From positions 9,450,163-9,514,162 of the forward strand of contig NC_088297.1 in NCBI RefSeq assembly GCF_032854445.1: a stretch of 64,000 nt of DNA, given 5' to 3'. The notes under the pieces were generated by a model. It saw only the letters and a program-made list of their open reading frames with translations. It had not been told where the DNA came from and did not search any database. Each line of letters starts with the position of its first letter. Within the stretch, counting starts at the first letter, position 1. Of the stretch, positions 1,157-46,554 are shown piece by piece. The DNA is from Liolophura sinensis. Lineage: Eukaryota; Mollusca; Polyplacophora; Chitonida; Chitonidae. A program made the position numbers and the translations under genes.

Positions 1157-1374
1157 TCACTCAGGAATTTCAGCGCCCATATCTTTCCGTTTCACACAGC
1201 GCGCCAGGTGATTTCTGGCGTACTCTTTTCGGCTGAATTTGGCACCGCAATACTGGCAGCTGAAGGGTTTGGGGTTGGCTTGGTGGAGCCGGAGGTGTCT
1301 GGTCAAGCTGTCAGGACGGGTAAACACTTTCTGGCAGACGAAACAAATTCTGGATGTTGTCTTCCGCGGAGGGT
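1157..1374 (-). CDS. Unit B alternative terminal exon: C2H2 + C2HC zinc fingers
   Basis: Encodes 72 residues and its own TGA. A good acceptor (tatttctgttcattccag) precedes it, and splicing in phase 1 to a shared exon 2 gives a first residue Asp. Finger 1 has C11, C14, H27 and H31 (C-x2-C-x12-H-x3-H) around QKVFTRPDSLTR. Finger 2 has C40, C43, H56 and C60, a C2HC variant around GAKFSRKEYAR. A short basic tail (VKRKD) follows. Paired fingers on a private last exon are the arrangement seen in lola-type transcription factors, so the inferred role is sequence-specific DNA binding in the nucleus. It is the leftmost exon of the array in this window. No ATG-initiated gene is evident around it, which supports an exon rather than a free-standing gene. 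Confidence 0.8.
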
Positions 1375-3280
1375 CTGGAATGAACAGAAATACGGGCCGT
1401 GGGCAGAAGGTGTCTTCGATTATTGTCTTTGTATGCCATTACATATTCTATAGGGAAAAGTGATTTATGGTTGATAGCTTAAACAAAATTCCGTTACGAT
1501 AAACTGACAGGGACAGTCTAACCAAACCATGAGACACCGTGTGAAATCATGTTTATAATAGCAAATTCTCCCGGACTCTGCCCGCTTTCTTCCCACCGTC
1601 AGTGAAATAATCTTCAGCACAACAGTAAAACACCTATCAGATAAATTTAACTACACACAACAGCTGTATGGTTAGTACATCGGATTCTGTAAGACGAGCT
1701 CTACATTGAAAATTCCATTTCGTTGTCTATGATGGAGTAAAGACAGCATTTCCGATTCCGTGTTGACACACTGTCTGTAACTGTCTACCTAAAGCATTCA
1801 GCAGTATATCCATTCTGTGCTGAAAAAAGTCTTTACGGTAGTTTGGCTAAAGTACAACAAAGCATCAATAACTTGATGAAGTCTTATCGGTATATAGACA
1901 CATGTTTAAGAGTATCACAACAGAACATATTCTATTGGAAAAAATGTCTATATGATTGGATAACTAAAGAATTATGCTGTACATCGGAACCATAGTGACA
2001 AGTGTTTAAGACAATAACTGTACCACTGTGGTACCCATATCCGTGTTAACGGATTATTATTTAACTTATAGGTAACAAATTACATATCTCATAGCCTCTC
2101 ATTACCTATCTCATGTGGACAAACTCTGCGTGAGCATGGTGAAAGTATGTCTCTCTAATTACAGCAATATGTGTTGTCGATGTGTTGCTAATTGTTAGCA
2201 GGGTCCTAAGAACAGTGAGTGCCAAAGAATCAGTGTATCTCACGACTGACAATCTCAGACATAAATCTCAACCGCATGGCCTCGGTCCGTCCACGCGACC
2301 GGTACTAGGACAAGTGTAGATCTTACAGGTGCGACTTCTGAAGGTTGCTCGTATCAGACAAAATTTTAATGACTATGTATACTTTTAAACATGTGTAAAT
2401 ATCAGAAACTAGATGTAGGCTCTTCAATATGTATGAAGCTCAGGATAAACACTGCTCCATCCGATATGTGAACATCAATGATTTACTTTTTTTATAGGTG
2501 TTTTACGCCTTACTTAAGAATATTTAACTGATACAGTCATAGGGTGAGTGAGGCTAATCGTTAACAACTGTTTAGTTCCATTAAGCATGATTGGTTCCAT
2601 CTTTTTTTTAGCAAGTTCACAGATGTACGGAAGAACATTTCACAAAGTCGATTGTTGACACGGTTTTGCTCAGAAAACAATTATGCAATATGCATAATGT
2701 TTTGTTCCAATAGGCCCATAACGCGTTGTAAACTCTTTCACGTGGCCTACAATTAATATATATATATATCACTATACTGTCATATAAGATTAGTTTTTCC
2801 TATACAAAGATTGTCATTTTTGATCCAGCGTCTTCCATTAGGCTTGGATTCTTCCAAGATTCACTCAAAAATCACATATATATTGTATTACGGGTCATAT
2901 ACAAGTTTTTTCTCCAAGCCTCGCTGTATATGGTCTGCTGTACATAATATTTTTCTCCACTATCCACAGCTTAATCTGTCAAAATTCCACGTTCTTACAA
3001 CGTTTTCCCTTATGCACAGGTTCTTCCTTCACATTCATGATCTCTATATTTTATACACAAGTCTCTTTCTTTTGGACACGATCCGTTCAAATACTATCCA
3101 TTTATCCCCACCGTGCATACACGTACATGTGTGTAAGTCTTTCAAGAGCTCTGAATACATATAAAATTTAAAAAAGCTTGCACCTGTTCTCTTTGAAATG
3201 GTCCATATGCATACACATTTTAGTATGTTCTATCCGAGGGATATAGTGTCCGTTTTTAGTCACTTCAAAGATGTCAAGTT
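1375..3280. other. Intron/intergenic DNA, no gene seen
   Basis: AT-rich sequence with a short TA run at about 2756-2770. The longest open frame (2811-3164, plus strand) is Phe/Ser/His-rich and has no domain signature; I regard it as chance. Confidence 0.5.
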
Positions 3281-3711
3281 TCATACGTTCTGTTTTGTTC
3301 CATTCTGCAACGCTTCTTTCTCTTTCAACAGACGAAACTTCTCTTGAAATGCCTTTTGACTCTGTAAAAATGTGGGCGATTTCGTGATAGACATCGGGTA
3401 GCCGTAAGTCTTCAGATAGTACTGCAAGGATTCTCGCAACCGTCTCAATCCACTTGAATGGTACTCATTGCCGTCCTTACGTTCCACAGAGATGAAAAAT
3501 TCCGTGAGGTAAATGTCTAAAGCATCTGGTGGTATGTCTGTGATACAGCATGTTTCACTGTGGCCTTTGTCACGTAACCAGCGCGTGAAAATGCCTGCTG
3601 CGCTGTTTGCGTTTCTACAAGTGTATGACCTGTGATCAGAACCCCGTCTGAGCTTTTCCTGTCTTCCTGGAAAACGCCACGTTTGAAATCGAGAATCTGT
3701 CGCCACCCCAT
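3281..3711 (-). CDS. Unit B alternative terminal exon: Crypton-type core-binding domain
   Basis: Encodes 143 residues ending at a stop. The acceptor ttcccttaacttatag puts it in phase 1 (first codon G|AT, Asp). After a basic leader (residues about 10-35) comes the domain shared with four other exons here: TDIPPDALDIYLTEFF, then K-DGNEY, then RRLRESLQYYLKTYGYP, then SPTFLQSQKAF. This is the pattern of the N-terminal SAM-like core-binding domain of Crypton tyrosine recombinases, as retained in domesticated vertebrate relatives (KIAA1958, QRICH1 and ZMYM proteins). The catalytic domain (Arg...His-x-x-Arg...Tyr) is absent, and there is no room for it before the stop. Inferred role: a DNA-binding tail with no recombinase activity. 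It is the most divergent of the intact copies in its N-terminal third. Confidence 0.75.
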
Positions 3712-4357
3712 CTATAAGTTAAGGGAAAAGGAGTGGCTATTAGATACAAGAGAAGCAATACTACTTTCCTTTTGGTAAAGATTTTCGCATGAAAGGTTGT
3801 AAATGTATTCTAAAGAAACCGCAAAGCTATGTTTTGTGTATGCATTCAGATTCCCAGAATGTGGAGTTGGGATGCTCCTATGAAACATGAGGTGAGTTAA
3901 AGCCCATTGGAATAACAGAGAAAACGAAAGTAAAATCATTCACAGGTAAACAATGGTTTCAACACTCTCTGACATATTTCGCAGTAATATAAACAAGTGT
4001 TTTAACCGCACACTAGATTGCCTCATTCTGAAAGTTGTATCACTGTCAACAGAAAAGATCACGGGAAGAACTGAAATACACCTGTACTGTACTGTGCTGT
4101 AAGGCCCTTGTAAATTAAACAAAAAATTAAACCAGATTTAATACTTCTTATAAACAGTCGTTTTCACTTAGCAGTTGATAATCGAACTGCATAATTTTCA
4201 GAAGAGTAGCAAGGCAGTGCATTTCATTGGATGCCACTGGCGGTGGGTCAGAATCGTGATCTATATAGCATTGCCTTGCGTACTTCTTTCTGAATAGGTG
4301 TTCCTTGTGACGTCAGATGTGATCAGTGCACAACAAAATAAGAATACGATGCTCGGA

Positions 4358-4659
4358 GTCCCCGGTCTGCTCTAGTAATGTATGCATTAGCAAAAGTGTA
4401 TACATTCAGATTGAGAACGTATTGTATAACCAAAACAAGACAGAAACGAAGCACTCTACGGCACGGTGCGGCGATAATACTTTCTTCCGCTGCACGTTAC
4501 ATTTGGCCGTCCCCGGTCTGCTCTAGTAATGTATGCATTGGTAAAAGTGTATACATTCAGATTGAGAACGTATTGTATAACCAAAACGAGACAGAAACGA
4601 AGCACTCTACGGCACGGTGCGGCGATAATACTTTCTTCCGCTGCACGTTACATTTGGCC
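4358..4659. repeat. Tandem duplication of a 151-bp unit
   Basis: Copies 4358-4508 and 4509-4659 directly abut and differ at only about three positions, which indicates a recent duplication. The open frames through it on the plus strand arise from the repetition and carry no domain. It lies between two Crypton-type terminal exons. Confidence 0.9.
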
Positions 4660-4850
4660 CATTACGTCACAATTTGACAGCCATGACGGCTATAGGCCTT
4701 GTCCACAGATAGTTTTGAAAAGAAAGGGAATTTCCTTCCTCTCCGTGCAGATATTACATTTGCATCCTGCGTACAAACATGAAGGTATTATTCCTTAATA
4801 AAGGAACAGGTAAATGCTATCAAACAACCTTTGCATATGATTCTGATCCA

Positions 4851-4856
4851 TTTATT
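4851..4856 (-). terminator. Candidate poly(A) signal AATAAA
   Basis: A minus-strand AATAAA about 340 nt after the stop of the 5.2-5.6 kb Crypton-type exon, a plausible distance for a 3' UTR. The assignment rests on position only; the motif is common in AT-rich DNA. Confidence 0.3.
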
Positions 4857-5192
4857 ATACTAGAAAAAGAAACTATAAAACACACAATTGACACACAAAT
4901 GATTCGTCACGTCAGCACCTTTGCGCTGTCAAGTCATTGGGCGAAAAGAGCTACATGTATTTAAGTGAACTCAAACTACCCGCCGAAGATGTCAAAGTCA
5001 TCCCTGACTCTTTGATCTCTGGTACAGCAAGAATGTCTTAAACCGGATTCCCTTTGATCAAATTTGTTATGCCTGCGATTCCTACAGAATATGTCCTTCT
5101 CTTTCGAGTGTACCCAGCTGTTTGTGTACTCAACGTTAACCTACTTCCACTCCTTTCTGTGGCAAAATGCACCATGCCCAATCACGCATAGA

Positions 5193-5632
5193 TCAGGCGA
5201 CAAGTGGGTCAGAAATGGGGTCGTATTTCTTGAGGTTCCGTGTAAAGGCAGCCCGACTTTTTCTGAAGTGCTCGTCTTTCGTGATACACGCCGGGTAATT
5301 GTTATCCTTCAAGAAGCGCGATAATGACGAGCGAAAGTTGAACACGTATCGAGCGTCATGACACTCTCCGTCGTCCTTGCGGAACACTTCGAAGAACTCT
5401 GACAAGTAAGCGTCCAGGGTATGGGTCGGAAGTGACTCCACGCGCCTCTCGTCGTTATGCATCTCCCAATACCACATCTCCACAGCTCTCACCGCCTGGG
5501 TCATATGGTAGACGGTCGAGGCAGGTTGCTGGCGGTTTGCTAAGACCCTCGAGCGAATTGCCTTTTGGTAAAAGCGGGCCGGTAGGTGAGGATGACTTGC
5601 AGAGAGAAAGTTTGCTGCTTTAGATCCACGCA
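5193..5632 (-). CDS. Unit B alternative terminal exon: Crypton-type core-binding domain
   Basis: Encodes 146 residues and a stop. The acceptor ctggatttttcag sets phase 1 (G|TG, Val). Residues about 25-60 form the helix block STVYHMTQAVRAVEMWY. Then come ERRVESLPTHTLDAYLSEFF, the FRKDDGE turn, FRSSLSRFLKDNNYP, and HFRKSRAAFTRNLKK at the end. It matches the 36 kb exon of unit A block by block, so the two look like close relatives in different units. As with the other copies, only the core-binding half of a Crypton recombinase is present; the catalytic half is missing. Inferred role: a nuclear DNA-binding tail joined to the shared N-terminus of unit B. A candidate poly(A) signal lies about 340 nt downstream. 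Confidence 0.8.
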
Positions 5633-7489
5633 CTGAAAAATCCAGATTTTTAGAAATTTAGATCCAGACAAAAAAAGCGAGGAATCGGCTTTCATATCTG
5701 GCATGTCTTTGCGCTGGCATGTATGTATGTATGCTTGGACAATGACATTTAGTGTCATAGTCTACTTTGGTATACACCCCACGAGTTTCCAAATCCATGA
5801 TCACAACGACCGCTAGCTACATCCAAAAACTGTTTATAGTGGACTTCACAAAAAATATTGGAATATACATCATACCGCCCAAAATTAGGTTTATGCAACG
5901 AAGTTGGTCTCAGTACAAAAAATACAGGCTATTTTTTTTTACTATAGTACAAGTATCACAACAATTCAACCAGCAATTAGATAACTGTTCCAGCTGAACC
6001 AAAAGTTTAACTGGCTGCCACCACGGAACAAAATACTTAGATTGGTCTCAACATAATACGTTAAAGGTACAATGCAAGCATGCTGCTACCATACAAGCAA
6101 AAATCACTCCTCTGTTTTCATAGCTCCTCTGTTTTCATACAGTTACTATCAAAAATTAGCCTCCTGTCCAGAACGTAACCCAAAACTCAGGCTTTTGTTT
6201 CAGCTAACTATAAAATTGAAAAAATTGATTTTGTGCCACAATAAAAACAAAAACAAAAAATACAATAAATAACTAAGTAAATAAATTAAATCTTCGGGGT
6301 TAAACGATTTTGTCTCTACAACGAACGTCGTATCTGTTTTATTTATTATTCTTGTTTATTGATTTATTACTTTTTACCTGCCAATGGAAAGTCTACTGAA
6401 ACATTACCACAGCTACAGAAGGACAAAACAATATATATATATATATCGACAACAAATGTTCCACCTGTAACATGCCATGACTGTACAAAATACCGTTAAC
6501 ATGAAAATCAATCATCCAAAGATACACAAATACATCAAATTTAAAGGAAGGTGAATCTCAAAACTTACAGGGTATAGCTTTAAAACTTTATTGCTCATCG
6601 CCTGAACGTCTTAAAGACTCTGTCTTGTGCTTGCTGGCTTGCCCGTCCTGTTTGACGATCGTTATGAAGGGTAACTGTTCAGTTTTCGACATATATGGTT
6701 CGACATACAACCTTGCCCCACTGCATTCTACCCAATCCTTGCCCGGAGTTGTGGTGGACACTCACAGTTATACATAGCTCAAGAAGAGCAAAAAGCATAC
6801 AAACGTTAACTTCTCACTGTATTCATCATGACTGTGAGACAAACCATCATGATAGAGCTTGGAACTAATCACTTCTTGATATGGCACACTTGGCAACTGA
6901 AATACTTTACACGTACATATATATACTCAAACAACGGAAAAACTGATGACTATTAAGTCAGCCTGAAGAGGCAGAAAACCAGAACTGCATCCTTACATAA
7001 TTAGAATAGTCTAACATAAATGCATGATAATCAATACATTTACACATGGTTTGCTCACAATTGTCAATAAGGCAGATTGTGAACTTGTTTCATTATTTTT
7101 TACTGATTGACTCTTCTTCAACACCATATTTTTAGAATTTTCCTTGACCATGTATTAAATTTACAGTACAAAATCTAAGACGCTGCTTTCTCTTAAAATT
7201 GGTCCCTTTTTTTTTTTTTTTTTTGAAATTTCAGGTATCTGTCAGAGTTTGCCAAAAAATATATATATATATATATTATAAGAAAGTAACATGCCAATCT
7301 GAGAAAAATTCCACAACAGTCAGTGTGTTCAGGTATTACACTGGGTATTAGTTCCTTATCCTTAGCAGACTACCAGTTCACATGCGCTATTGTACACAAA
7401 CATATATCATACACAATACAAAACATACACAATATCATGATTACTAACTAAAGTAATTTCACGAAGTCAATACTACAAATCACGCAAGA
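5633..7489. other. Intron/intergenic DNA, no gene seen
   Basis: Low-complexity A- and T-rich DNA with short AT microsatellites (about 6432-6446 and 7258-7276) and a T-run near 7208. Short open frames are Asn/Lys/Ile-rich and unconvincing. Confidence 0.5.
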
Positions 7490-7960
7490 TGTCCCAACGT
7501 CGCTGGCACTGTCACATCTCCTGAAATTGTGACATGTGTCTTGGAAGTGTCATAGATGGGTTTTACTGAGATAAAGCTCACGCTGAATGCCAAGCGAGAA
7601 AGCTATTAGGTAAAGACAAATGTGTCCAATTGTCTACCTCTAGAACTAAAAACTACGCGTTGTAAAGAGGTTTAAATTTTGTCTTAAGTCAGAAATGGCT
7701 TTGTCCAATTGGCCCCAGTATATGTATACTGCAAGAGATCTCCTCATTGTACTCCATCTCCTGATACCATAACACGTCTATTGACACTGTAACACAAACT
7801 CATGAGATTGTAACATATCTTCTAATATTGTCACAGATATCTTGGTATTCCTCATGGGTCAGCCTGATACTGTAACAGATATGATTGTGACAGTTTTCTT
7901 GTCACTGTCGCACACCTATGACAATTCCTTGGAGTTGTCACATTTCATTCCCTGGCAATG
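7490..7960. repeat. Degenerate tandem repeat, about 25-35 bp units
   Basis: Variants of (ctcctgata-ttgtaaca-tatct) recur many times, interspersed with gaps, and stop just before the 8.0 kb exon. Divergence is high, so copy number is uncertain. The plus-strand open frame at 7842-8462 starts in this repeat and runs antisense through the exon; it is not a gene. Confidence 0.55.
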
Positions 7961-8036
7961 CTCATCATCATCCCTTTGGTTTAGTTCGAAAAATCTCCTA
8001 GCAAGTTATAACACACCAAATCATTGCTTTTCAGGA

Positions 8037-8449
8037 TCACCATTTCGGTTTTACAGGGAGGTTTTTTCTCCGTATCTGAAATGCCTGGTGGCTTCGTGCA
8101 AAAGCAGAAGACTTGCGCAGAGAGAAGCGATAACCCTTGTCCACAAGAAACCTCTCAATGTACGATCGGAGACAAGCGAACGACGTCGGGTCATAATCCC
8201 CTCCGTCCAGCTTCTTGACGTTGCTGAAGAAGTCCACCAACAAAGGATCCAGTTCCTCAGGTGGGATGTCCTCCGTGCATCTGTGTTCTCCACACGCTTG
8301 CAGCCAGGTTTCCAGGGTGGCCACCGACCCTACCAAGTGCTTCACGGTGATGTAACTTTTGTCCTGTATGTTATCTATCCTGGAGCGGACGCGTTGGCAG
8401 GTAGCGCGGCGCCGGGCCAGCATGGCCTGGGTCGTCATGTCAGGGTAAC
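8037..8449 (-). CDS. Unit B alternative terminal exon: Crypton-type core-binding domain
   Basis: Encodes 137 residues ending ...NLPVKPKW-stop. The acceptor tccttatcccttccag gives phase 1 (G|GT, Gly). The leader is Arg-rich (LARRRATCQRVRSRIDN), followed by the helix block VKHLVGSVATLETWLQ. Then come DIPPEELDPLLVDFFSNV, the KKLDGGDYDP turn, CLRSYIERFLVDKGY, and SSAFARSHQAFQIRRK. All blocks align with the other Crypton-type exons in the same order, and again no catalytic domain follows. Base composition is clearly more GC-rich than the flanks, typical of a real exon in this window. It is the second exon met downstream of unit B exon 2, after the helix-turn-helix exon. Confidence 0.8.
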
Positions 8450-9595: not shown

Positions 9596-9750
9596 TCAGT
9601 ACAGGTTCCGCTCGCCAAATCTTGACTTCCACGTCATTAATGTACTGTGTGGAATGTTAAGCAGTCTAGAAGTGGGTCTCCATCCTTTCTGTTCAGCAAG
9701 TCTGAGAGCTTGTATCTTCTCCTCTACAGAGTATGACCTCTTGGTTTCTT
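9596..9750 (-). CDS. Unit B alternative terminal exon: psq/Brinker-like helix-turn-helix
   Basis: Encodes 51 residues and a TGA, in phase 1 after the acceptor atgggtatttcag. Nearly the whole exon is one small domain: KRSYSVEEKIQALRLAEQKG, then RPTSRLLNIPHSTLMTWKSRF. A basic-aromatic start (RSY), a helix with A-E-Q-x-G, then a helix-turn-helix ending in W-K is the pattern of Brinker/psq/CENP-B N-terminal DNA-binding domains, also found in pogo-type transposases. Inferred role: a DNA-binding tail. An open frame extends upstream through the acceptor to an ATG, but that part (Phe/Tyr/Lys-rich, A/T tracts) looks like intron. It is the first terminal exon downstream of unit B exon 2. Confidence 0.75.
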
Positions 9751-11443: not shown

Positions 11444-11485
<42 letters not shown>

Positions 11486-14731: not shown

Positions 14732-15424
14732 CTGCACCATGTCCTGTATCTTGAGATAATGACTGCTCCCCAGGAGGTGACTGGAATGACATCACATGTT
14801 GTATTGAGCTTGAATCCTCTGTTGAAACTGATGGAGACGATGAGTAATGAGCAGCTGTGGAAGAGGCCTGAGGTGAAAATGCTAATGAGTTATCTCCCCT
14901 TGACTGGGTGGCACTCCCCGGCTGATGTGACGATATCAAAGTCCTAAAATCATTGTCTGTCATAGATGTTGAGTGATGGTCATCAGGATCAGAGTCTTGG
15001 ATGATAGACATCAAGCTCTGATTGTCCGTTTCACTGATTGACGTGTCTTCAATGTGGCGCATTTTTGATGGAGATGAATTTGAAAAGGAATCGCGTGATC
15101 TGGATAATGAGTCTGGTAATGGTCGTTTTCTAGCGTTCTGATTGCTGGGCTGTACACGGTGAATACTGATAGGGAACACATCCTGGTCATCTTCTGTAAC
15201 TTCCTCTTTGATCACCACGACTCCCGGGGACAACCGATCATCTGGCTGATTCTCCTCGTACACTACCGGTTCAGGAGGACGTGTCTTCTGATAGCTTTTC
15301 GACCCAGGTAAGGCAGTTCGGGACAAACTTTGAGGACTGTAGGCATCATCTGTCCTTGTAATCACTGGTGAGTGTACCTCATGACCTTTTAACCACACTG
15401 GGTCTGGACTCTCCCCTGAGCAGT
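14732..15424 (-). CDS. Unit B shared exon 2: Ser/Pro-rich linker
   Basis: A 693-nt, phase 1-1 exon encoding 231 residues. The acceptor tttgtctgtttaccag joins unit B exon 1 as G|AC, giving DCSGESPDPVWLKGHE. The donor GGTGCAG|gtcagt leaves phase 1, matching every terminal exon downstream. Blocks conserved with unit A exon 2, in order, are: DCSGE-PDPVWLKGHE; an acidic stretch ending VFP[IV]S[IL]HR; NSSPSK[MF]R; NSL-FSPQA; LS-DTG. A canonical sumoylation consensus (VVIKEEV) lies about one third in. No folded domain is recognised and the sequence looks disordered. Inferred role: a flexible constant linker between the N-terminal domain and the variable tail. The NSL-FSPQA segment is encoded by a copy of a dispersed GGGAGATAACTC-type element. 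Confidence 0.8.
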
Positions 15425-16185: not shown

Positions 16186-16935
16186 AATAATATGCAAAAT
16201 TTACAAAGACACAGTGTCAATGCATGTAACTGTAAGTGTATGCATTCACAACAAAGATACATTTACAAAGACACACAGTCAGTGCATGTAACGAAGTGTA
16301 TGCATTCACAACACAGATGCATTTACAAAAACACAGAGTCAGTGCATGTAACTGTACGTGTATGCATTCAAAACACAGATACATTTACAAAGACACAGAG
16401 TCAGTGCATGTAACTGTAAGTGTATGCATTCAAAACACAGATACATTTACAAAGACACAAAGTGAGAGCATGTAACTGTAAGTGTATGCATTCAAAACAC
16501 AGATACATTTACAAAGACACAAAGTGAGAGCATGTAACTGTATGTGTATGCATTCACAACACAGATACATTTACAAAGACACACAGTCAGTGCATGTAAC
16601 TGTAAGTGTATGCATTCAAAACACAGATACATTTACAAAGACACAGCCAGTGCATGTAACTAAGTGTATGCATTCAAAACACAGATACATTTACAAAGAC
16701 AGAGTCAGTGCATGTAACTGTATGTGTATGCATTCACAACACAGATACATTTACAAAGACACAGAGTCAGTGCATGTAACTGTAAGTGTACGCATTCACA
16801 ACAAAGATACATTTACAAAGACACAGAGTCAGTGCATGTAACTGTATGTGTATGCATTCAAAACACAGATACATTTACAAAGACACAGAGTCAGTGCATG
16901 TAACTGTAAGTGTATGCATTCACAACATAAATATA
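16186..16935. repeat. Minisatellite, about 60-bp unit, about 12 copies
   Basis: Units read (cacagatacatttacaaaga) + cacagagtcagtgcatgtaa + ctgtaagtgtatgcattcaa with small indels. Long Cys/His/Met-rich plus-strand frames through it come from the repetition and should not be taken for zinc-finger genes. Lies in intron 1 of unit B. Confidence 0.9.
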
Positions 16936-16955
16936 TACATATGTATAATTCATTT

Positions 16956-17100
16956 ATTTGATTCATGGTGTTTAACACCATACTCAAGGATACTTCACTT
17001 AATCAACAGCAGCCAACAATTATGGTGGGAGGAAACCCGGCAGAGCCCGGGGGAAACACACAACCATTCCCCAGGGTGATGGCAGACCTTCCTACGTACC
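16956..17100 (-). mobile_element. SINE family 1, headless copy
   Basis: Carries only the 3' body and tail of the element and stops at the point read on the plus strand as cttcctacgtacc, so it lacks the tRNA-like head. Possible short target-site duplication ATACATAT on both sides. It sits about 44 bp inside intron 1 of unit B. Confidence 0.75.
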
Positions 17101-17143: not shown

Positions 17144-17330
17144 CTAATGAGATGGCTCCCTTCGCTTTGTACTCTGCCAGACGTAAATCAAGCCATATTG
17201 CAAATTTGGACAAGACAACAGGCTCACTGCAGAGTTCCCCAATGATACAGGCAAACTTGTTCTGTACTCGCTCCAGAATGGCATCCATATCAGTCAAACA
17301 TTAAAATACCGAACGTCAGAACAGGTTAAG
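17144..17330 (-). CDS. Unit B shared exon 1: conserved N-terminal domain
   Basis: The coding part is 17144-17288 (145 nt, 48 codons plus one base). The start ATG lies in the same place as in unit A. A 42-nt 5' UTR follows the acceptor agatctcttcttgcag-like tract, so at least one non-coding 5' exon is expected upstream. The donor TTAG|gttggt leaves phase 1. Residues 5-48 begin LERVQNKFACIIGELCSEPV and end AEYKAKGAISL. They differ from unit A at one position, while many codons differ silently, so the protein is under strong constraint. I do not recognise the fold; it looks all-helical and small. It is not a BTB domain. By analogy with lola-type genes it may be an oligomerisation or partner-binding module, but that is inference. 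Confidence 0.8.
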
Positions 17331-21164: not shown

Positions 21165-21624
21165 GAGCATGTTGGAAAGTTACCTATGACGTGATGGATG
21201 AGAAAAGTGTCATAGGAACACAAGTGTGTGTTGAGATCTTTTGCGTTTTTCTATATCACACTGGTGTATTTACCTGGTCGGACAGCGAATCCTTAGCATT
21301 AACTAAGCGGAAATCTAAGTTTGACACAACACAACATTGTGATATCGATATCACAAAATTATAAATCATTTTATTGTGAATCAACTGTATATTACATTCG
21401 TCGAATTGTTGGCAATACAATCTAATAAACATGACAATAATTTCCAGATTTCATAACTCTATGGGCTATAAATAACACAACGGATTCACATGATCATAGA
21501 ACATAATATTGATGGATATCGATCTGAAATGAACATTATAATATAAACCATCCTGTAAATTACTGGCTGAGACAGATGACGCGGTCTACTCTCTGACATA
21601 ATTTGCTCTCCGAAAATTATGTAC

Positions 21625-22085
21625 CTGATAGTCTGAGAAAGGGCAGTGGGAATTCCCTATCGGACAGTCTGCTATGGGAAAAGGCAACTGAAATTTCCTA
21701 TCTGACAGTCTGCTATGAAAAACTGCTGTTGAAGTTGCCTATCTGACAGTCTGCTATGAGAAAAGGTTGATGAAATTCCCCATCTGACAGTCTGCTATGA
21801 TAAAATGCCATTGAAATTACCTATTTGACAGTCTGCTATGAGAAAAGGTTGATGAAATTCCCCATCTGACAGTCTGCTATGATAAAATGCCGTTAAAATT
21901 GCCTATCTGACAGTCTGCTATGAGAAAAGGCTGTTGAAATTCCCCATCTGACAGTCTGCTTTGATGAAATGCCATTGAGACTGCCTATCCGACAGTCTGC
22001 TATGAGAAAAGGCTGTTGAAATTCCCTATCTGACCGTCTGCTATGAGAAAATGCTGTTGAAATTCCTTATCTGACAGTCTTCATT
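21625..22085. repeat. Minisatellite, about 42-bp unit, ten to eleven copies
   Basis: Units alternate between two related forms: (tatctgacagtctgctatga) + gaaaaggctgttgaaattcc, and a form with gataaaatgccattgaaatt. The alternation suggests a higher-order dimer unit. Confidence 0.85.
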
Positions 22086-22215
22086 GAAAATAAATCCTTA
22101 TATATTTGGTAGTCTCAAAAACTTTCATTATTCCGTACCGGTACATGATAGTTTGACCTGAGAACATGCAGTCCCCACAAATTCTGCATCTGGCGCTCTG
22201 TTCTCAGAAAGTCAT

Positions 22216-22499: not shown

Positions 22500-22745
22500 T
22501 AAAAGAAGTCTCCTTGCCATTGCAGAGTTCTGTACAGTGTACATTTGTCTGATGGCGTAATATGGTTCTCTGTTCCTGATGACGTCACATTTATATATTT
22601 GGGACGTGGCATAATGCTGTCTGGTGTCGTCACAGAATACTACGTGTCAGATGTTGTCACACGAGAAGACATGACCGATGCGAACACATCATACTACGTG
22701 TCTGATGATGACATCTGATGTGAATATTTCTGCTGGCGCCATCGG
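22500..22745. repeat. Degenerate repeat rich in gatgtcatcaca / actacgtgtc variants
   Basis: Several imperfect copies of (gatgacgtcaca...tactacgtgtc) at irregular spacing. CRE-like TGACGTCA occurs once (about 22579). Confidence 0.35.
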
Positions 22746-23092
22746 ATATTACGAATCTTCTGAGAAAGCTTCTTGCAAAATGTGGTCTGAAGAGAAAAAA
22801 AAACCAACTTAGCATTGGAGGTAACTACAGCATATGCGTCGGTTATTGTTATGTGGGTTGTAAACCATATTCTTTGTGTTCCATATATGGCCTAGTCCAA
22901 TAAATGGCGGACTTTTTGTACCATAATTGCTTATTCTGATTACAACATTTAACGAAAAGCTTTGTACAAGTATGTGTTTGTTGGCCCCGTTTTTTAATTG
23001 CTTCACACTGCTGCGGTTCTATAGCATCAAGTGCTACCTCAATGAAACGCTATTATTGCCATACTGGAGAAACAAGAGAATATATTTATGTA

Positions 23093-24609: not shown

Positions 24610-25013
24610 CTATACTCTCACCCATGGAAAGGTTCCCGGTCTTTCGATGAATGGGTAAGCGGCGTACATCCTGCGGCCCAGCTCCTCGTATTCCGTCTTG
24701 CTGCCAATGTCCACGTACATCAGTATGTGGTAGGCCGTCTCCTGCACCATAATACTCATGAAGGGGGCGTTGTGCTTAACTGCAGCCATCACTCGACTCG
24801 AGAACTTCGGTAGCGGGATGGTAGAAATGTGAGTGAGTTTGCTAGGTGTCTGTCGGGGATGTGAGGTAGACCAGTCTTTTCTGGAACCGTCACTAGGTAA
24901 TGGAGTCCCACTGTTGGCATCGACTTTTTCGGACAACTGATCTTTGGTGTCGGGTTCGGACGTTTCCTGATGGTCAGTGTTTGGGGACTTTGTCAGCTTG
25001 GTTTCCGAGGATT
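24610..25013 (-). CDS. Unit A alternative terminal (or penultimate) exon: YPF-motif domain
   Basis: Encodes 134 residues if read to its TAG. The acceptor tactttatttacttcag sets phase 1 (G|AA, Glu). Residues 1-65 are Ser/Thr/acidic and look disordered. From about residue 67 comes a compact domain: PKFSSRVMAAVKHNAPFMSI, then MVQETAYHILMYVDIGSKTE, then YEELGRRMYAAYPFIERPGT-FPW. The Y-x-x-L-G-x-x-(6)-YPF-x(8)-PW pattern resembles domains in many uncharacterised animal proteins where, from memory, it continues past PW with a basic helix. The sequence CCATGG|gtgaga is a good donor exactly at PW, so the exon may splice on in phase 0 and not end in VRV-stop. Both readings are kept open. Confidence 0.65.
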
Positions 25014-28486: not shown

Positions 28487-28725
28487 TCACAGAGGCTGCG
28501 AGTTCTGATCCGAGATTGGGGCTTTGTTGGCATTGTCCCCAGAAGCAGGGTGAACCCGGCTCATGTGCTGCTTCAGATTATCCTTCCTGTTGTACACACG
28601 ACCACACACTGGACACGAATACCCACCGCCCTTCACTTCGTGCGTCTTTAAGTGACGTTTAAGGCAATAATTTCGCGTAAACTGACCTCCGCAAATGGCG
28701 CACGTTGGTACTTTCCGTCTAGGCC
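28487..28725 (-). CDS. Unit A alternative terminal exon: two C2H2 zinc fingers
   Basis: Encodes 79 residues and a TGA, phase 1 after the acceptor catgtctgcttgcag (G|GG, Gly). Finger 1 has C9, C12, H25 and H29 around AICGGQFTRNYCLKRHLKTH. Finger 2 has C38, C41, H54 and H59 around CPVCGRVYNRKDNLKQHMSR-VHP. The second finger's NL-x-x-H-x4-HP ending is typical of insect lola/fru/ttk-type fingers. The cysteine and histidine positions are identical to those of the 33 kb exon, so the two are duplicates. A 20-residue Asn/Ser/Gln-containing tail follows. Inferred role: sequence-specific DNA binding. The nearest minus-strand AATAAA downstream is about 720 nt away (27762-27767). Confidence 0.85.
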
Positions 28726-32524: not shown

Positions 32525-33065
32525 TTAGTTTTCGATAAGCGTCAATGCTCTCGTCAGTGGAAGACGTATTGACACTTTTCTTGGACTCAAGATAAGTAGT
32601 TCAAACTAACGTTTTCGTAAGGTAGAGAAAAAATGTGTTAAGACTTCTGGTAATCATGTAGTTTTCAATGACTGCCCACGTTGTAATCTGGGACTTTTAC
32701 AGACAATTTATTAAGGCTTTTCTTGTACTCATAATTTTTAATGAGCGTCCACTTTTTCCTCTGGTACAGACAGTGTCTCAATGCTTTCTATTACTCATAT
32801 TTCTTAATAAGCACCAACGTTTTCGTCAATTACGGAAAATGTGTTGAGGCCGATTGTTTTCTCGCAACCGTTGTCTTCAGTGTACATCCATGTTTTGATC
32901 TGGTACTTATGCAGTCGATCTGTTAAGGCTTCAGAACTCTTTTAATCGTAGTTTATCAACGACCGTACATGTATGTACAAACGATCTGTTAAGGCTTTTC
33001 TTGTGCTCTTACAGTACTGTTTCACTGAGCGTCCGCGGTTTCGCCCGGAACACGGGCTAAGGCGT
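32525..33065. repeat. Degenerate minisatellite, about 75-85 bp unit, running into a zinc-finger exon
   Basis: About seven diverged copies of (tgttaaggcttttcttgtac) + tcatagttttcaatgagcgt + ccacgttttcgtctggtac. The last copy on the right overlaps the 3' end of the 33.0-33.3 kb exon. Confidence 0.7.
32707..32712 (-). terminator. Candidate poly(A) signal AATAAA
   Basis: Minus-strand AATAAA about 310 nt after the stop of the 33 kb zinc-finger exon, lying inside the minisatellite. Positional evidence only. Confidence 0.3.
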
Positions 33066-33269
33066 TACTGACAACCTGTCCCCAGTAGACCGGATGTATT
33101 CGCCTCTGATGGTTTCTCAGATGCTCCAGGCGTCGGAATCTGGCCGGGCACAGCTTGCACGTGTGACGTCTAGAGCTCGGATCGTGCAGAGTTCGGTGAC
33201 GCCTCAAAGTACTGCGACTTGAGAACACCCGATGGCAAACACTGCATTTGAGTTGGTTACTTCGACCGC
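33022..33269 (-). CDS. Unit A alternative terminal exon: two C2H2 zinc fingers
   Basis: Encodes 82 residues and a TGA, phase 1 after the strong acceptor caacttctgttttcag (G|GC, Gly). Finger 1 has C9, C12, H25 and H29 around SVCHRVFSSRSTLRR. Finger 2 has C38, C41, H54 and H59 around KLCPARFRRLEHLRNHQRR-IHP. Spacing of all eight ligands is the same as in the 28.5 kb exon; the inter-finger linker differs (DPSSRRHT versus EVKGGGYS). The final 15 or so residues (LARVPGETADAQ) are encoded by one copy of the minisatellite that occupies the next 500 bp, so the C-terminal tail appears to have been captured from, or to have seeded, the repeat. Inferred role: a DNA-binding tail for the unit A N-terminus. 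Confidence 0.85.
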
Positions 33270-35958: not shown

Positions 35959-36401
35959 TCACATGTCCTCAGGGCCACACAAGTGCATCCTTTTAGAAAT
36001 CGCGAATGCTTGCTGACTTCTAGCAAATCTCGGCGAGCAGGCGATAGACTCAGGATAATTATAGTCCTTCAGATATCGAGCAAGATATGAGCGAAAACTG
36101 GACAGAGAGCGAGGGTCATATGGAGTACCGTCATGTTTGCGGAAATGCGTGAAGAAGTCAGAAAGGTACTCGTCCAGAACCTCTGGCGGTAGTGTTTCCA
36201 CCTTCCTTGTGTCGGACTGTCTTTGGTGGTACCACCGCTCCACCCACAACACCGCCTGAGCTATGTGCATAATGGTCGACCGCGACTTTGAGGCCTTGTC
36301 CACTATCCGGGAGCGCACAACCTGTAGATGAGAGCGCTTTGTCTGGGACCTACAGAGCGCGTACGAACTCCTCATCGAATCACAGGAACCGCCACGATTA
36401 A
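35959..36401 (-). CDS. Unit A alternative terminal exon: Crypton-type core-binding domain
   Basis: Encodes 147 residues ending LCGPEDM-stop. The acceptor ggcttttgtcatttcag gives phase 1 (G|TT, Val). After a basic Ser/Arg leader (residues 1-45, with KRSHLQVVRSRI) come STIMHIAQAVLWVERWYHQR, then VETLPPEVLDEYLSDFFTHF, the RKHDGTPYDP turn, FRSYLARYLKDYNYP, and SPRFARSQQAFAISKR. This is the cleanest copy of the family and fits the core-binding fold of Crypton tyrosine recombinases best. The catalytic domain is absent. With unit A exons 1 and 2 it would give a protein of about 394 residues. Inferred role: a domesticated DNA-binding domain. A longer frame extends upstream through the acceptor, but that part is intron-like. 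Confidence 0.85.
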
Positions 36402-38100: not shown

Positions 38101-38104
38101 TCGA

Positions 38105-38238: not shown

Positions 38239-38694
38239 CAGAGATTAAGATTATCCACTTTCAAAACTATTATGGCCGTTCAGGACATCGACAAATTTGT
38301 AGAGATTTTTTTTAATAAATGGTTTGTCATATTAAATTTTTCCCACCCCTTTCATTTCAAAATATTTCGTTCTTATGAACAGTAATTTGGCACATGGATC
38401 TACCAACACTGATTACAGATTAACTTTCAGTTTTGGGTCTTATTGTCCATTTCGGACAATATCGTCATTTTAATTCTGCTTGTGGACTTTAGAGCCTGTG
38501 CCGGTATGGTAGAGATGTATTACGAACATAATATAATTTCCAAAATGCTTCTTTGTTTATTTGTTGGTTTGACTGGTGCTTTAAATCATAAAAAAACTTG
38601 AAAATCATACTTGGCCTCCTGATTTAATGGGACAATTCAACGAGTCGGAACTGAGCTGAAATAAGACAGGTAATCTAAATGAGCTAGGGTATAT

Positions 38695-39225
38695 TCTAAA
38701 AAACAAACACTCTTTCACAGACGACTAAAACTACTATTTTTATTACGAATTCAACCTGCAGGAAGAGGAAGTACAACATAACTTTTTTTCTGCCTTGGCA
38801 ACCTTTGACGTCTTGGTTCATAATAACGGTGAAGTCATAACCCCCCACCCCCACCCCTTCAAAAACCTGCTCAAACACGATTTCAGTGAAGACAAAGCAT
38901 ATCTTTCGTAATCGCTGCCGCATTTTATTTTCACGACGTAGAGAAACTGGGCAAGGTATATGTTCAGTTCCACGGGTAGAATATTCTCGTTGTGACGTGA
39001 TTCCCTTGTGCGTCGTTTGAAGTCAATACTCAAAGCTGCCCACTACGCCAGTCATGTGCCATACTGTACTCTCACTCTTCCCTTTCGGATCAACAATACG
39101 CCGCCTTACCCTTCTCCAAAAAATGCTGCGGTCTCGGAACTCGGCCGGATGGCTGCCACTGCTCCCAAAAGAAAGAACCATGCCTGTACTATCTACATTT
39201 CCAGTCGCTCCAGCAAGAGACGCGG
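38695..39225 (-). pseudogene. Unit A broken Crypton-type terminal exon
   Basis: It starts like the intact exons: a usable acceptor (cgctgattactgctcag, phase 1, G|CC, Ala), a basic block (RRVRRRIVDPKGKSEST), then VWHMTGVVGSFEY. There the frame shifts at TATTGAC (about 39020) and the domain resumes in another frame with NILPVELNIYLAQFL, KIKCGSDYE and LSSLKSCLSRFLKG. A G-rich simple-repeat expansion (GGGGTGGGGGTGGGGGG on the minus strand, about 38840-38858) shifts it again; GYDFTVIMNQDVKGC continues in a third frame. The conserved second-helix Phe-Phe is FL here. With at least two frameshifts this exon cannot encode the full domain. It lies first in line after unit A exon 2. Confidence 0.75.
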
Positions 39226-39345
39226 CTGAGCAGTAATCAGCGTCAAAAGTCCTTCCCATGACTTCTCAAAATGGCAAAGGACTCCAGGTCAACTGGTACA
39301 CTTTCCTAAAAATAGTTATAATTTACAATATTTTGCTTTTGGATA

Positions 39346-39348
<3 letters not shown>

Positions 39349-39402
<54 letters not shown>
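39349..39402. repeat. TA microsatellite
   Basis: Uninterrupted (TA)n, about 54 bp, just upstream (minus sense) of the broken Crypton-type exon. Confidence 0.95.
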
Positions 39403-39405
<3 letters not shown>

Positions 39406-41239: not shown

Positions 41240-41475
41240 AAAGAGCAGGTTGTGACCTAGGAACCTCACACCAATGAGGTCACTGTGAGTTCAAGTCCAG
41301 CTCATGCTGGCTTTCTCTCCGGCCGTACGGGGGAAGGTCTGAAAGGAACCTGCGGATGGTTGTGGGTTCCCCCCGGGCTCTGCCCGGTTTCCTCCCACCA
41401 TAATGCTGGCCGCCGTCGTATAAGTGAAATATTCTTCAGTACGGCGTAAAACACCAATCAAATAAATAAATAAAC
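41240..41475 (+). mobile_element. SINE family 1, head partly lost
   Basis: B-box region (gagttcaagtccagctcatg) and full body through the tail cggcgtaaaacaccaatcaa + ataa repeats. The A-box region is degraded. Confidence 0.8.
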
Positions 41476-41675
41476 GTATGTTATTTACACCTGAACAGTT
41501 GGTGGGATGGGATTTGATGCCTGACAATGCCCTTATCAGGTTGTTATGTGCACAGGTTGTAGTTGTATTTGTACTTGTATATGTATCCATATCACAGTAA
41601 CACCTGACAAAATCTCAGCTTTGTTACTCTTATATGTACATGTTTACACAGTCTACAAACGTTGTGTCACAGAGT

Positions 41676-42212
41676 ACAATACTTCACTGTGCCATACAGT
41701 ACAATACTTCACTGTATCATACAGTACAATACTTTGCTGTGCCATACAGTACAATACTTCACTGTGCCTTACAGTACAATACTTCACTGTGCCATACAGT
41801 ACAAGGCTTCACTGCATCATACAGTACAATACTTCACTGTGCCATACAGTACAATACCTTGTTGTGCCATACAGTACAATACTTCACTGTGCCATACAGT
41901 AAAATACTTCACTGCATCATACAGTACAAGGCTTCACTGCATCATACAGTACAATACTTTGCTGTGCCATAAAGTACAATACTTCACTGTATCATACAGT
42001 ACAATACTTCACTGTGCCATACAGTACGATACTTCACTGTGCCATACAGTACAATACTTCACTGCACCATACAGTACAAGGCTTCACTGCATCATACAGT
42101 ACAATACTTTGCTGTGCCATACAGTACAATGCTTCACTGTGTCATACAGTGCAATACTTCGCTGAGCCATACAGTTCAAAAACTTCACTGTTTCATACAG
42201 TACAATACTGTA
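41676..42212. repeat. Minisatellite, 25-bp unit, about 21 copies
   Basis: Units (catacagtacaatacttcac + tgtgc) with recurrent variants (gcttcactgcat, actttgctgtgc) that recur in the same order, suggesting higher-order blocks of several units. Since 25 is not a multiple of three, open frames of up to 167 codons pass through all frames; none is a gene. Confidence 0.9.
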
Positions 42213-42639
42213 ACCCTTTGTCCACCGAATTGGTCACTAAAACAGTGAAGGTGAAGTGTTCTTAGCACTGCTTGAAAAACAATCATGATCCCTTACAAAA
42301 AAGGTTTCAAATTCACCAAGATGTTAGAAGGTTGAGCCGTCAAACACCGGATCATAGGTCAAAAGCCACTGTAACATAACTACTCACAAAACCAGATAAA
42401 TCACTTTTCTCTCATCTAACTCTTTTGCTAGCCAAGATGTACAGGTTGATTTTGGTGTTACAAACAAAAAGGTAGAGAAACTTTTCATACATGTTTCCAG
42501 GGCCTAAAAAATAAGGTTTTTGGGTTCAAAAATGTTTTAGCACCCAAACTACATCAAGCTGTTGTTAAACTAAGAAGCCAACGAGTGCATGATGATTTAC
42601 AAAAACAAGGTTTGTTGTCATAAAATGTATTTATTTATT

Positions 42640-42935
42640 TATTTGACTGATTCTTTCCTGTGTCTTACTCAACAAGTTTTCCCTTGTTAATGTTTACGGA
42701 CAGTGCGCCTCGGTTCTCTGAGTGGCGAAAACAAGAGTGCCCAGAGTAAACGCCCGACACAAGTCCCTGACGAAGTTTCACATGTGACACACAGATGTGC
42801 ACAGATGTATCAGTGGAAGTCAAGTGGTCTTCAAAAAACATGACTGTGGAAAACTCCCAGAAATGTTGTTGATCGCTTATTGTCACCAAGATCTCAGGAG
42901 AAGTGAGGTCTAGAAATTCCCTGTGCAAGGCCGGG
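42640..42935 (-). mobile_element. SINE-like repeat, family 3, diverged
   Basis: Begins tttatttatttgactgattc and contains the family 3 landmarks in weakened form: agagtaaacgcccgacacaa ... cagtggaagtcaagtggtct. The 87-codon minus-strand frame is repeat-derived. Confidence 0.5.
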
Positions 42936-44040
42936 GTTTGAACAACAAGTGCAGCCGTTCATGATTGTGACCAAGTCCTTTAATTTTTTTTCTAAATAAG
43001 GCCCTGCCTTTAAATAAAACTAATCATAAAATAACAGGCAGCGAAAGTAAATTTACATATACATACGTACGTGCCAGGCTAGTAGCAATGCATACAACTG
43101 TATATTAGCATTAAAAGAAAGTCAATAATATTTACATGATGTGAACAGAAATATATTGTGCACCATCCTGACAATACACACATGTGTATCATAACATATG
43201 TATATGTACACGTACATGTAGTCACTGTTCGACACGCATGAGTACATACACTGACATTCCGTGTACCACAACTCCTCAACCTTTTCTTCACCAACACTGT
43301 CCTTACATGTAAAAGTCGAATTCATACACTCCTATCAAACTTTAATGTACTCCAATAAACATGTAAATAATGATATGCACATTAAATTTTCAACAAAAAA
43401 AATAATAAATAAAAGCTGCCTGTATGAAAAGGTTGAAGAGTGAAAGTACCAAACAGGCCCGACAGCCTATTCCACAAAGTAGTCGCAGATACAGCATTAT
43501 ATTACAGTGTTTCTTCTACAGCCCTTCACTGTTTGCATTTAATAAGCACTGGGTTAAAACATGTATGTTCAAGTCTAAAGATGTGAAAACTTATAAAAGG
43601 AAAATAACAGTTACTGTTATAGTTTGGTACAGGAAATTTTCATAGCTTAAAATACAAACTACATCCACAATCCAGAACAAACGCATTTTAAAGCCACATA
43701 AAGACGATCAAATTTGAGGTTTGGCAAGTTATGGGAGCAGCCATTGTGTGACTTTGTAAATGTCATTGGCCTAGCTCTAAACTCTGCTTAAAACAGATGT
43801 GTTATTATTGTTTTTATGTAATGTACATGTACATTCAAGGCAGAACACAGTGAATTGAGCAAAGACGAAGAAGAATGAAAATTGGGGCAAATAAAGTCAT
43901 TTGTGAATAGAGTTAAATCAACTGAGAAATGGCCATCTATATAGAGTGCTTGCATATATATATATACATACATGTACATGCATGAACTGTTGTCATTTCA
44001 GAAAATGATTGGTACTAAATGAGCTCATATATATTACTCA
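42936..44040. other. Intron/intergenic DNA, no gene seen
   Basis: AT-rich. Overlapping short frames at 43.1-43.4 kb on both strands are Cys/Tyr/His-rich chance frames in tacatg-type sequence. Confidence 0.45.
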
Positions 44041-44044
44041 AACC

Positions 44045-44152
44045 TGTTGATGGTTTCCCACGGGCTCTGCCCGGTTTCCTCCCACAATGATGTTGGTCGC
44101 CGTCATATAAGTGAATATTCTTGAGTACAGTTTGAAACATCAGTCAAATAAA
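44045..44152 (+). mobile_element. SINE family 1, 3' fragment
   Basis: Body from gatggtttcccacgggctct to tail catcagtcaaataaat; no head. Confidence 0.75.
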
Positions 44153-44477
44153 TATACTATATAACTGTATAACTAAATATACTTTGTAAATTACTAGTTG
44201 TATTCAAGATTTTTGACAAGCCGCAAAACAAAATGATACATACATGTACCTTCCAATACTTTATTTTTTCCTATGAGCCTATTGAAGAATCAGTCTAGCT
44301 CCTCCATGTTTTTAATGGTCTAAACTGAACTATACTATCTGTGTTCTTACAAGAGTCAGGCATGCCAGTTCGACTGGTTTGTCTATGATAATGCGACTGT
44401 ACACATACAAGGTGCAAATTGCAACTACTTTTGTGGAATACGCTGCAGATCAATCAAGACAGACTGATAAGACTCAC

Positions 44478-45074
44478 CTGTGTCATGGCTCAGTGAAAAG
44501 TCTTCTGTCTTAGACTGGAGAGCTAAAGTCTGCTGCAAGGAGTTATCTCCCGCCTGAGGTGAAAATGTTAATGAGTTATCTGCCCCTGACTGTAACAACA
44601 TACTGCTTTGGTTTGATGAGAATACAGAGGACAAAAAGCCCTCGTCAGGGCCATTTGACTGGTCAAAATCAGCATGAGTATCTGTGGTATTAAATGAAGA
44701 AGAAGGCAGTGCTGGGTCTACTGTATTTTCTGTGATATCTTCCACAAAACGTCGAAATTTGGACGGTGAGGAGTTGGGATGCGTTTCAGTGATTGAGCGC
44801 TTGTGATCCTGACTACGGTGCAAGCTGACTGGGAAGACGCACTCAATGTCACTGTCATTCTCTTTTTTGCACACAGTTTTTGCTGGGAATGATGAATCCT
44901 CTGGTGATTCCGTGAGACTAGATGTGAAGCGTTGACGAGATCTGTGTACACTGGGTTCGGTGTGGGATTGGGGCGGGGAAGGGTTGTAGTGATAATCCTG
45001 TGAACTCTCGCACACAGGGACATCTTTTTCATGACCTTTCAACCAAACTGGGTCGGGGTTCTCCCCTGAGCAAT
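44478..45074 (-). CDS. Unit A shared exon 2: Ser/Pro-rich linker
   Basis: A 597-nt, phase 1-1 exon encoding 199 residues. The acceptor tatgtatgttacag joins exon 1 as G|AT, giving DCSGENPDPVWLKGHEKD. The donor GACACAG|gtgagt is near-consensus and leaves phase 1. It aligns with unit B exon 2 through DCSGE-PDPVWLKGHE, CVFPVSLHR, NSSPSKFRR, ADNSLTFSPQA and LSHDTG; between these blocks the copies diverge and B is 32 codons longer. It is rich in Ser, Asp, Gln and Pro with no recognised fold, so probably disordered. The ADNSLTFSPQAGDNSL stretch contains two imperfect GGGAGATAACTC motifs, in frame. Inferred role: a constant linker that carries the N-terminal domain to whichever tail is spliced on. 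Confidence 0.8.
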
Positions 45075-45499
45075 CTGTAACATACATATAAGAGAAACAT
45101 TCACATCAATGCATATAGTTCGGCATGATACGTCTAGAAAATTGCTGATGTGGCGTTAAGCCATTATCACTCATTGATTCAATGGTGAATCATCATTCTT
45201 ATCATCCTAGACAGGATACTAGGAACTCCAACCGTTCCTAATATTGTAGGTACCAACATATTCTGATATACGTAACTAAATTTTTATTCCAAGTGTACAA
45301 ACACGCTGAGTGTCAAACAACACGAAATTTTAGACAATTGGATGAGCTTATGTTTCCATCATTGTGTAACTCATAAAACAATATGACGCTGATGGTCGGA
45401 TCGTGGTACACACATCTGCGTATGATGTGAACATCTTCCTCAGCCTTCCTACACAGATGCTCTGATCCACATCCATGTACATGTAAGATATATCATTAT

Positions 45500-45767
45500 T
45501 TATTTATTTAATTTGATTGGTGTTTTACGCCTTACTCAAGAATATTTCACTTATACGACGGCGGTCATCATTATGGTGGAAACCGGGCAGAGCCCGGGGG
45601 AAACCCACGACCATTCCCAGGTTGTTGGCGGACCTTCCCACGTATGACCGAAGAGGAAGCCAGCATGAACTGGACTTGAACTCACAGCGACCACATCGGT
45701 GAGAGACTCCTGGGTCATCATGCTGTGCTAGTGCGCTAACCAACTGAGCCACAGAGGCCCCCTGAGG
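45500..45767 (-). mobile_element. SINE family 1, full-length, in intron 1 of unit A
   Basis: On the plus strand, tail ttgattggtgttttacgcct to head actgagccacagaggccccc. Flanked by an 11-bp target-site duplication, TATATCATTAT (45489-45499 and 45768-45778). Confidence 0.9.
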
Positions 45768-45947
45768 TATATCATTATGATCTGGTCATACTGTAGCAGA
45801 AATAATATACATTTACATGTATTAGGAACATAATTAATGCTGTGTTTTGGATTTGGAATTCAACCCTTGTAATGATTTTCAAGAAAGAAAAATAATTAAA
45901 ATATTGCACAATAACATGTCACTGTATCTTTTTGTGTCATATCGCTG

Positions 45948-46025
45948 TGAGTTCAAGTCCAGTTCATGCTGGCTTCCTTTCAGGCTGTACGTGGGAAGGT
46001 TTGCCAGCAACTTGCGGATGGGCGT
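45948..46025 (+). mobile_element. SINE family 1, internal fragment
   Basis: Contains the B-box region gagttcaagtccagttcatg through caacttgcggatgggcgt only. Confidence 0.65.
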
Positions 46026-46345
46026 GAAAAAATGTGATATTACTAGATGTAATAATACCAGAACAAAAACTTTTATTTGCCTTTAAAAATGTTTTTTGTG
46101 GGGGTTTTTTTTCGGGTAAATCTTAGGCAATAGTATATTATTTACTTATTAATTTGATTCCTGCTCAACACAATAATTGACAATTTAGAATTTTACTATT
46201 TATCAAATTATGTGACCGTGCAGAGTTCAGTTTATGGAAGAAATCAATCCAATCCATTCTCTTTACATCACAGAACTCTTTTACATCATGTGGAGGAGGG
46301 TGGGTTAATGCTCATACAGCATGTACAACAGATTTACCATCTCAC

Positions 46346-46554
46346 CTAAGGATATGGCTCCCTTGGCCTTGTACTCTGCCAGTCTCAGGTCCAGCCATAT
46401 TGCAAATTTGGACAAGATGACTGGCTCACTGCAGAGTTCTCCAATAATGCAGGCAAACTTGTTCTGTACTCTCTCCAGTGTCACACCCATGTTTTACAAA
46501 ACACCATTGAACAGCCAAGACAAGGGGCACAGTTCACCTTTACTAGAGGATACT
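46346..46554 (-). CDS. Unit A shared exon 1: conserved N-terminal domain
   Basis: Coding part 46346-46490 (145 nt, phase-1 donor TTAG|gtgaga). A 64-nt 5' UTR follows an acceptor (ctcgtttcttacag), so a non-coding exon lies upstream, possibly ending near 47.53 kb. The 48 complete codons begin MGVTLERVQNKFACIIGELC and run to AEYKAKGAISL. After residue 4, unit B differs only by Ile/Val at residue 25, whereas roughly 16 silent changes separate the two copies. The predicted structure is a pair of helices with conserved Cys, Trp and basic residues. I do not know the family; it is not BTB, SCAN or zf-AD. Inferred role: a common protein-interaction module for all isoforms of the unit. Confidence 0.8.

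Follow-up and report, generated by a model that had tools for sequence, protein, structure and literature searches.

Shared first exons and rows of alternative DNA-binding-type tail exons in a gene family of the chiton Liolophura sinensis

How might one gene start be made to serve many different DNA-binding proteins? The question is raised by a stretch of 64,000 nt on C3 of the chiton Liolophura sinensis (formerly named L. japonica; PMC12441733), hereafter the window (C3:9450163-9514162), where two short shared exons stand ahead of a row of same-strand exons, here called tails, that carry unrelated domains. The published assembly is described in the excerpted text as about 609 Mb in 13 pseudomolecules (PMC11068029). 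All coordinates below are positions in the window of this 609-Mb genome unless a chromosome is given, with negative numbers lying to its left. We find two minus-strand units in the window, unit A (RefSeq LOC135463872) and unit B (LOC135463699), and consider it very likely that each is a single transcription unit, in which constant exons 1 and 2 are followed by a same-strand row of alternative tails entered through phase-1 acceptors.

The two copies of the shared exons, with phase-1 donors, are found where the original prediction, an annotation made from the DNA letters, had placed them. In unit A, exon 1 (46346-46554, coding 46490-46346, donor 46345) encodes a nearly invariant N-terminal module and exon 2 (44478-45074, donor 44477) a linker. 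The corresponding exons of unit B lie at 17144-17330 (coding from 17288, donor 17143) and at 14732-15424 (donor 14731). The product of exon 1 is a 48-residue start, reading MDAILERVQNKFACIIGELCSEPVVLSKFAIWLDLRLAEYKAKGAISL in unit B, and that of exon 2 a long linker, which in unit B includes an IKEE SUMO-type motif and the residues RKR.

The joining of these exons to alternative tails is borne out by the RefSeq models. Five RefSeq proteins were seen for LOC135463699 and two for LOC135463872, and each corresponds exactly to exon 1, exon 2 and one tail. In unit B the junctions in the window lead from exon 2 to 1374, 3711, 5632 and 8449, and in unit A to 33269 and 25013, so that six of the nine predicted junctions are present in the models, while those to 36401, 28725 and 9750 are absent from the isoforms seen. 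No cross-unit junction occurs among the seven proteins mapped to units A and B, and as each unit has its own exons 1 and 2 and its own tails in these proteins, they are two loci and the idea that they form one is ruled out. Over a wider stretch of 324 kb (C3:9300163-9624162) 16 of 98 RefSeq proteins could be mapped, each confined to one unit. The protein database was clustered at 90% identity, and some isoforms may therefore be hidden. RefSeq names the isoforms mostly as uncharacterized proteins, and one gene has isoforms numbered up to X31. As a rule, Gnomon proposes alternative variants only where there is transcript support.

The tails of unit A, all on the minus strand, begin with a recombinase-like tail broken into two pieces in different frames (38821-39160), a case of tail death near 39.0 kb. 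They continue with a recombinase core-binding-like tail (35959-36401), a C2H2 tail used in isoform X2 (33022-33269), a second C2H2 tail (28487-28725) and an exon whose domain has no assignment (24622-25013, isoform X1). The tails entered at 36401 and 28725 have phase-1 acceptors. The original prediction gave every tail exon its own stop, with one broken; the broken piece is there, but the 25013 exon is internal, with a donor after 24622, and in RefSeq splices on to 22786-22697 in the last exon of isoform X1 (22694-22786). In unit B, also on the minus strand, a candidate tail resembling a helix-turn-helix (HTH) domain (9596-9750) is followed by three recombinase core-binding-like tails, 8037-8449 (isoform X5), 5193-5632 (X2) and 3281-3711 (X4), and by a C2H2 tail at 1157-1374 (X6). 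Unit B extends to the left of the window, with candidate tails at -3213, -5633, -10431, -14618 and -16852, the one at -3213 being used by one RefSeq isoform. Within units of the 324-kb stretch, recombinase-like tails tend to precede C2H2 tails, the C2H2 tail at 1157-1374 being an exception. In a neighbouring unit, the tail at -47680 to -47166 contains an in-frame stop at which the RefSeq isoform P0016 ends, and the annotated tail is therefore truncated.

That all tails share one splice phase holds for most of them. When acceptors were scored with a simple matrix that was not trained on L. sinensis, in the frame set by each domain, the phase-1 site came out on top in seven of the nine intact window tails (1374, 3711, 8449, 25013, 28725, 33269 and 36401). 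At the 5632 tail it ranks second by 0.2 bits and is yet used in the RefSeq model. At the 9750 tail it ranks only fourth, at 3.6 bits, for which reason we regard this tail as doubtful. In the 324-kb stretch 53 recombinase-like and C2H2 tails were found, of which 51 were scored (a fragment and a tail lacking any acceptor were left out). Of these 51, 48 have their strongest acceptor in phase 1, against a chance expectation of one third; in one of the 48 the tail is partial and its site very weak. The HTH-like and 25013 tails are excluded from this count, which becomes 49 of 53 with both included. Of the three exceptions, two are in phase 0, the broken exon among them, and the third, the 5632 exon, is in phase 2. 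An exon 1 lies upstream on the same strand of all 53 tails of the stretch.

How far does the arrangement extend beyond the window? Two tandem units had been predicted and both are real, but they are only two of about 45 exon-1 copies in the genome. Two unlike queries agree on this number, the first giving 59 matches of which 45 were counted as exon 1 (41 strong and four weak) and the second 46 matches of which 45 are exon 1. The copies are distributed over C3 (35), C7 (7), C6 (1) and C1 (2, divergent). A genome-wide tail query returned 305 candidates, of which 150 were scored and 155 were not. All 150 scored tails lie downstream of an exon 1 on the same strand, at a median distance of 19.7 kb and a maximum of 70.1 kb (145 within 60 kb), and in none does a second exon 1 intervene; with the tail strand flipped as a control, an exon 1 lay within 60 kb for 35 of the 150. 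As the tail query is position-neutral, the tails are tied to exon 1 independently of annotation. At least one scored tail belongs to 34 of the 45 exon-1 copies, and two or more belong to 26. The finding is in this sense larger than the original prediction described. The two C1 copies, L035 (C1:70.53 Mb) and L036 (C1:79.76 Mb), are divergent relatives with an exon-2-like start reading PDWMKG or PDWMQG and could possibly represent the stem of the exon-1 module; C1 carries none of the 150 scored tails.

A single-sequence search retrieved 89 proteins, all from Liolophura, and a profile search 42, of which 40 are from Liolophura and two lie on short contigs. A tail search gave three proteins, one being a tail of 86% identity on another contig. 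We take the contigs outside Liolophura to come from other chitons. In these searches the module was not found outside Liolophura and the contigs just named. A paper on this exon-1 family was not found in the open-licence literature searched, nor in the excerpted portions of PMC11068029, PMC12005716 and PMC11545220.

It had been predicted that the constant part differs from that of lola, and this agrees with our searches, in which the N-termini matched neither BTB nor any other Pfam domain. BTB gave no match in 80 + 10 proteins at E ≤ 0.01, and at E ≤ 10 Pfam gave no family for one N-terminal piece of the family or for the two C1 relatives. For exon 1 no PDB match was obtained by sequence profile and no NCBIfam match in that prokaryote library; a whole-protein profile against PDB returned a single row, TATA-box-binding protein (E 0.19), at positions 205-280, outside exon 1. 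The exon-1 module is modelled as two helices followed by a low-confidence linker, and as the confidence of the helices is only moderate (pLDDT 59-79 by blocks) we make no claim about its fold; fold searches with the modelled protein were filled by the tail domain. A SUMO-type motif is present in the linker of 28 of 29 N-termini, where 2.9 would be expected by shuffling, and the linker also contains a basic motif.

The tails are mostly recombinase core-binding-like, the others being of C2H2 type, weakly BEN-like, of CENP-B/Tc5 HTH type or without assignment. The original prediction derived such tails from Crypton elements. Five window tails, including the broken one, match the family's own recombinase-like profile, and the 8037-8449 tail, the one that was modelled, has a fold resembling the core-binding domain of QRICH1 and Cre. 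However, the four intact recombinase-like window tails match Pfam PF25561 only weakly and under the cut-off (E 0.0047-0.13), and only the core-binding half is present. Among the 80 proteins PF25561 was the sole match at E ≤ 0.01. Together with the window tail lengths of about 135-150 residues, this rules out that the tails are full recombinases. On C2, a chromosome without exon 1, an open frame (L002, C2:17160731) contains a core-binding domain like that of the tails and also matches PF00589.

The constant and the variable parts have had different histories. Copies of exon 1 differ mostly at silent sites, with dN/dS of 0-0.10 in the 14 of 21 pairs (43 codons each) in which dS is unsaturated, the other seven being saturated, whereas exon 2 has diverged (dN 0.55-0.97 in the ten pairs of five). 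Between exon 1 of unit A (46346-46490) and that of LOC135463857 (C3:9588018-9588161) dS is 0.24 and dN is 0, whereas the silent sites of their exons 2 are saturated; the low dS of this pair may reflect gene conversion of exon 1, or else constraint on its silent sites. Of 109 tails, 103 have a unit-mate, and 64 are closest to a tail of their own unit; after shuffling this number was 9.4 on average and 21 at most. The tail tree, in which 10 of 106 inner branches are starred and 54 are open, has 41 unit-label changes, the minimum being 22; shuffling gave a mean of 79.3, and none of 200 shuffles came as low. Median tail identity, at 0.35 within units, is hardly above the 0.33 between units. Taken together, this pattern in the sequences indicates that tail exons were copied in tandem inside their units, in addition to old tail types that the units have in common. 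The tails at 36401 (unit A) and 5632 (unit B) are sisters with support 99, which is expected from unit duplication. In 11 of 11 tail pairs pN is under pS, but selection on the tails is only suggested, because the pairs had been selected on protein similarity, a choice biased towards this outcome, and dS is saturated in nine.

Sequence and RefSeq models show exon 2 joined, in different isoforms, to different tails of the same unit, and the proteins share their N-terminus and differ in their C-terminal domains. Since each of the 150 scored tails is preceded by an exon 1 on its own strand, and since none of the mapped isoforms crosses from one unit to another, we infer that the tail would be chosen by alternative splicing in cis, with 3′-end formation after the chosen tail. 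The products may be nuclear DNA-binding regulators, in which the tail would pick the target and the N-terminus would recruit partners or dimerise. Tandem duplication of tail exons within a unit would supply new tails, and copying of all exons of a unit together would supply new units.

Several known systems invite comparison. In the excerpted sources, 17 of 20 lola isoforms have different C-terminal C2H2 fingers and mod(mdg4) has at least 30 isoforms, most with FLYWCH domains (PMC11426971), and for mod(mdg4) trans-splicing is reported, with acceptors partly on the opposite strand (PMC12692577). As in these Drosophila loci, the chiton units combine constant 5′ exons with many alternative DNA-binding 3′ exons, which here mostly stand in one phase and in part appear in RefSeq models. 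The Drosophila loci differ in their BTB N-terminus and in the reported trans-splicing; in the chiton the scored tails are on the strand of exon 1 and mostly recombinase-like, and the constant module has about 45 copies. As no BTB domain was found, the chiton family is not a member of the lola/mod(mdg4) group. The nearest precedent we have met is vertebrate KIAA1958, whose two isoforms take different Crypton-derived domains from different exons, according to the part of the study available (PMC3212892). Its alternatives are two and contain longer DUF3504 domains (the domains compared in the same excerpts have about 270-350 residues; PMC3212892), whereas in the chiton each unit has many alternatives, these have only the core-binding part, and unrelated tails are mixed in. 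Crypton-derived DUF3504 genes such as QRICH1 and ZMYM combine a core-binding and a degenerate catalytic half, which the window tails do not, and QRICH1 is not described as an alternative-tail locus in the excerpted text.

Several observations weigh against the arrangement of alternative tails proposed here. The tails might instead be independent short genes, or decaying pieces of mobile elements, that happen to lie near exon-1 genes, with the RefSeq isoforms as artefacts of merging. One window tail is broken, the neighbouring unit's tail has a stop at the end of its isoform, and the L002 frame joins a core-binding-like to a catalytic domain away from any exon 1. An in-frame ATG precedes the domain in 29 of 49 tails, although the other 20 have none. 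We consider this account very improbable, since all 150 scored tails are tied to exon 1 by strand and distance and 48 of 51 share phase 1. Further points against our own proposal are the 155 unscored candidates, the 11 of 45 exon-1 copies that own none of the scored tails, the three window junctions missing from the RefSeq isoforms seen, the untrained acceptor matrix, and at least two RefSeq isoforms (P0008 and P0037) that have multi-exon tails. A poly(A) hexamer lies within 500 nt after 24 of 50 tail stops, compared with a random mean of 26.6; the hexamers show no enrichment and give no support as markers of separate 3′ ends. The near equality of tail identity within and between units and the biased, saturated tail pairs count in the same direction, and as exon 1 has no known domain, any regulatory action has to rest on the tails and on short motifs.

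It could also be that the tails have promoters of their own and are joined to the exon 2 of any unit by trans-splicing. The exon anatomy matches that of loci reported, in the excerpted sources, to trans-splice (PMC12692577, PMC11426971), and the common phase would let any unit take any tail. We regard this as unlikely, given the absence of a cross-unit isoform among the 16 mapped proteins and the same-strand exon 1 upstream of every scored tail, where mod(mdg4) has acceptors on both strands. A further suggestion is about what the family is for and could hold alongside the anatomy proposed above, namely that the family is a repertoire against mobile elements or foreign DNA in the manner of KRAB zinc-finger proteins (KRAB-ZFPs), with a constant silencing N-terminus and fast-turning tails. 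The many units, the duplication and loss of tails, the element-type tail domains and the SUMO-type motif would all fit, this motif, in 28 of 29 linker sequences, being the only trait that matches KRAB-ZFP-like silencing. The compared tail pairs, a biased sample, have pN under pS and do not indicate fast protein change, and we hold this purpose to be possible but doubtful.

Other features of the window include an open frame of 413 codons upstream of unit A (52109-53350, minus strand), without a Pfam match over the cut-off, which is probably a separate gene. A repeat family with the motif TTTGATTGGTGTTTTACGCCGTACTCAAGAATATTTCACTTATA occurs at twelve places in 19056-62223 (12 listed copies of an 84-bp core, and inverted copies) and looks like a short interspersed element (SINE). 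Tandem arrays are found at 41567-42266 (period 25 bp), 62793-63935 (32-34 bp), 16186-17060 (mostly 62 bp) and 21593-22131 (41 bp).

The alternative-tail architecture of the lola type is already known, and it is its scale in the chiton that is unusual. Returning to alternative tails spliced within each unit, the sequences suggest that one start can be joined to any of several ends, which probably yields many regulatory proteins. Tentatively, and with less confidence than we have in the anatomy, we envisage a repertoire of the chiton lineage, in which three chromosomes would bear as many as about 43 loci with alternative tails, 34 of the copies owning one or more scored tails, and a fourth would bear two divergent copies. 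Its recruiting module, nearly invariant, would be paired with DNA-recognition tails of mobile-element type that are exchangeable and probably number in the hundreds, as a regulator or genome-surveillance set of KRAB-ZFP scale built by alternative last exons and not by one gene per protein. Chitons are described in the excerpted text as conservative in their morphology and as having strongly rearranged genomes (PMC12005716). If our reading is true, the lola-type solution arose again outside arthropods with another constant part, in dozens of loci with probably hundreds of tails, and a recombinase-type domain was recruited in the form of a multiplying exon set and not on a single occasion. This would open to testing the way in which a genome gains DNA-binding specificities without having to gain a promoter or a gene as well.

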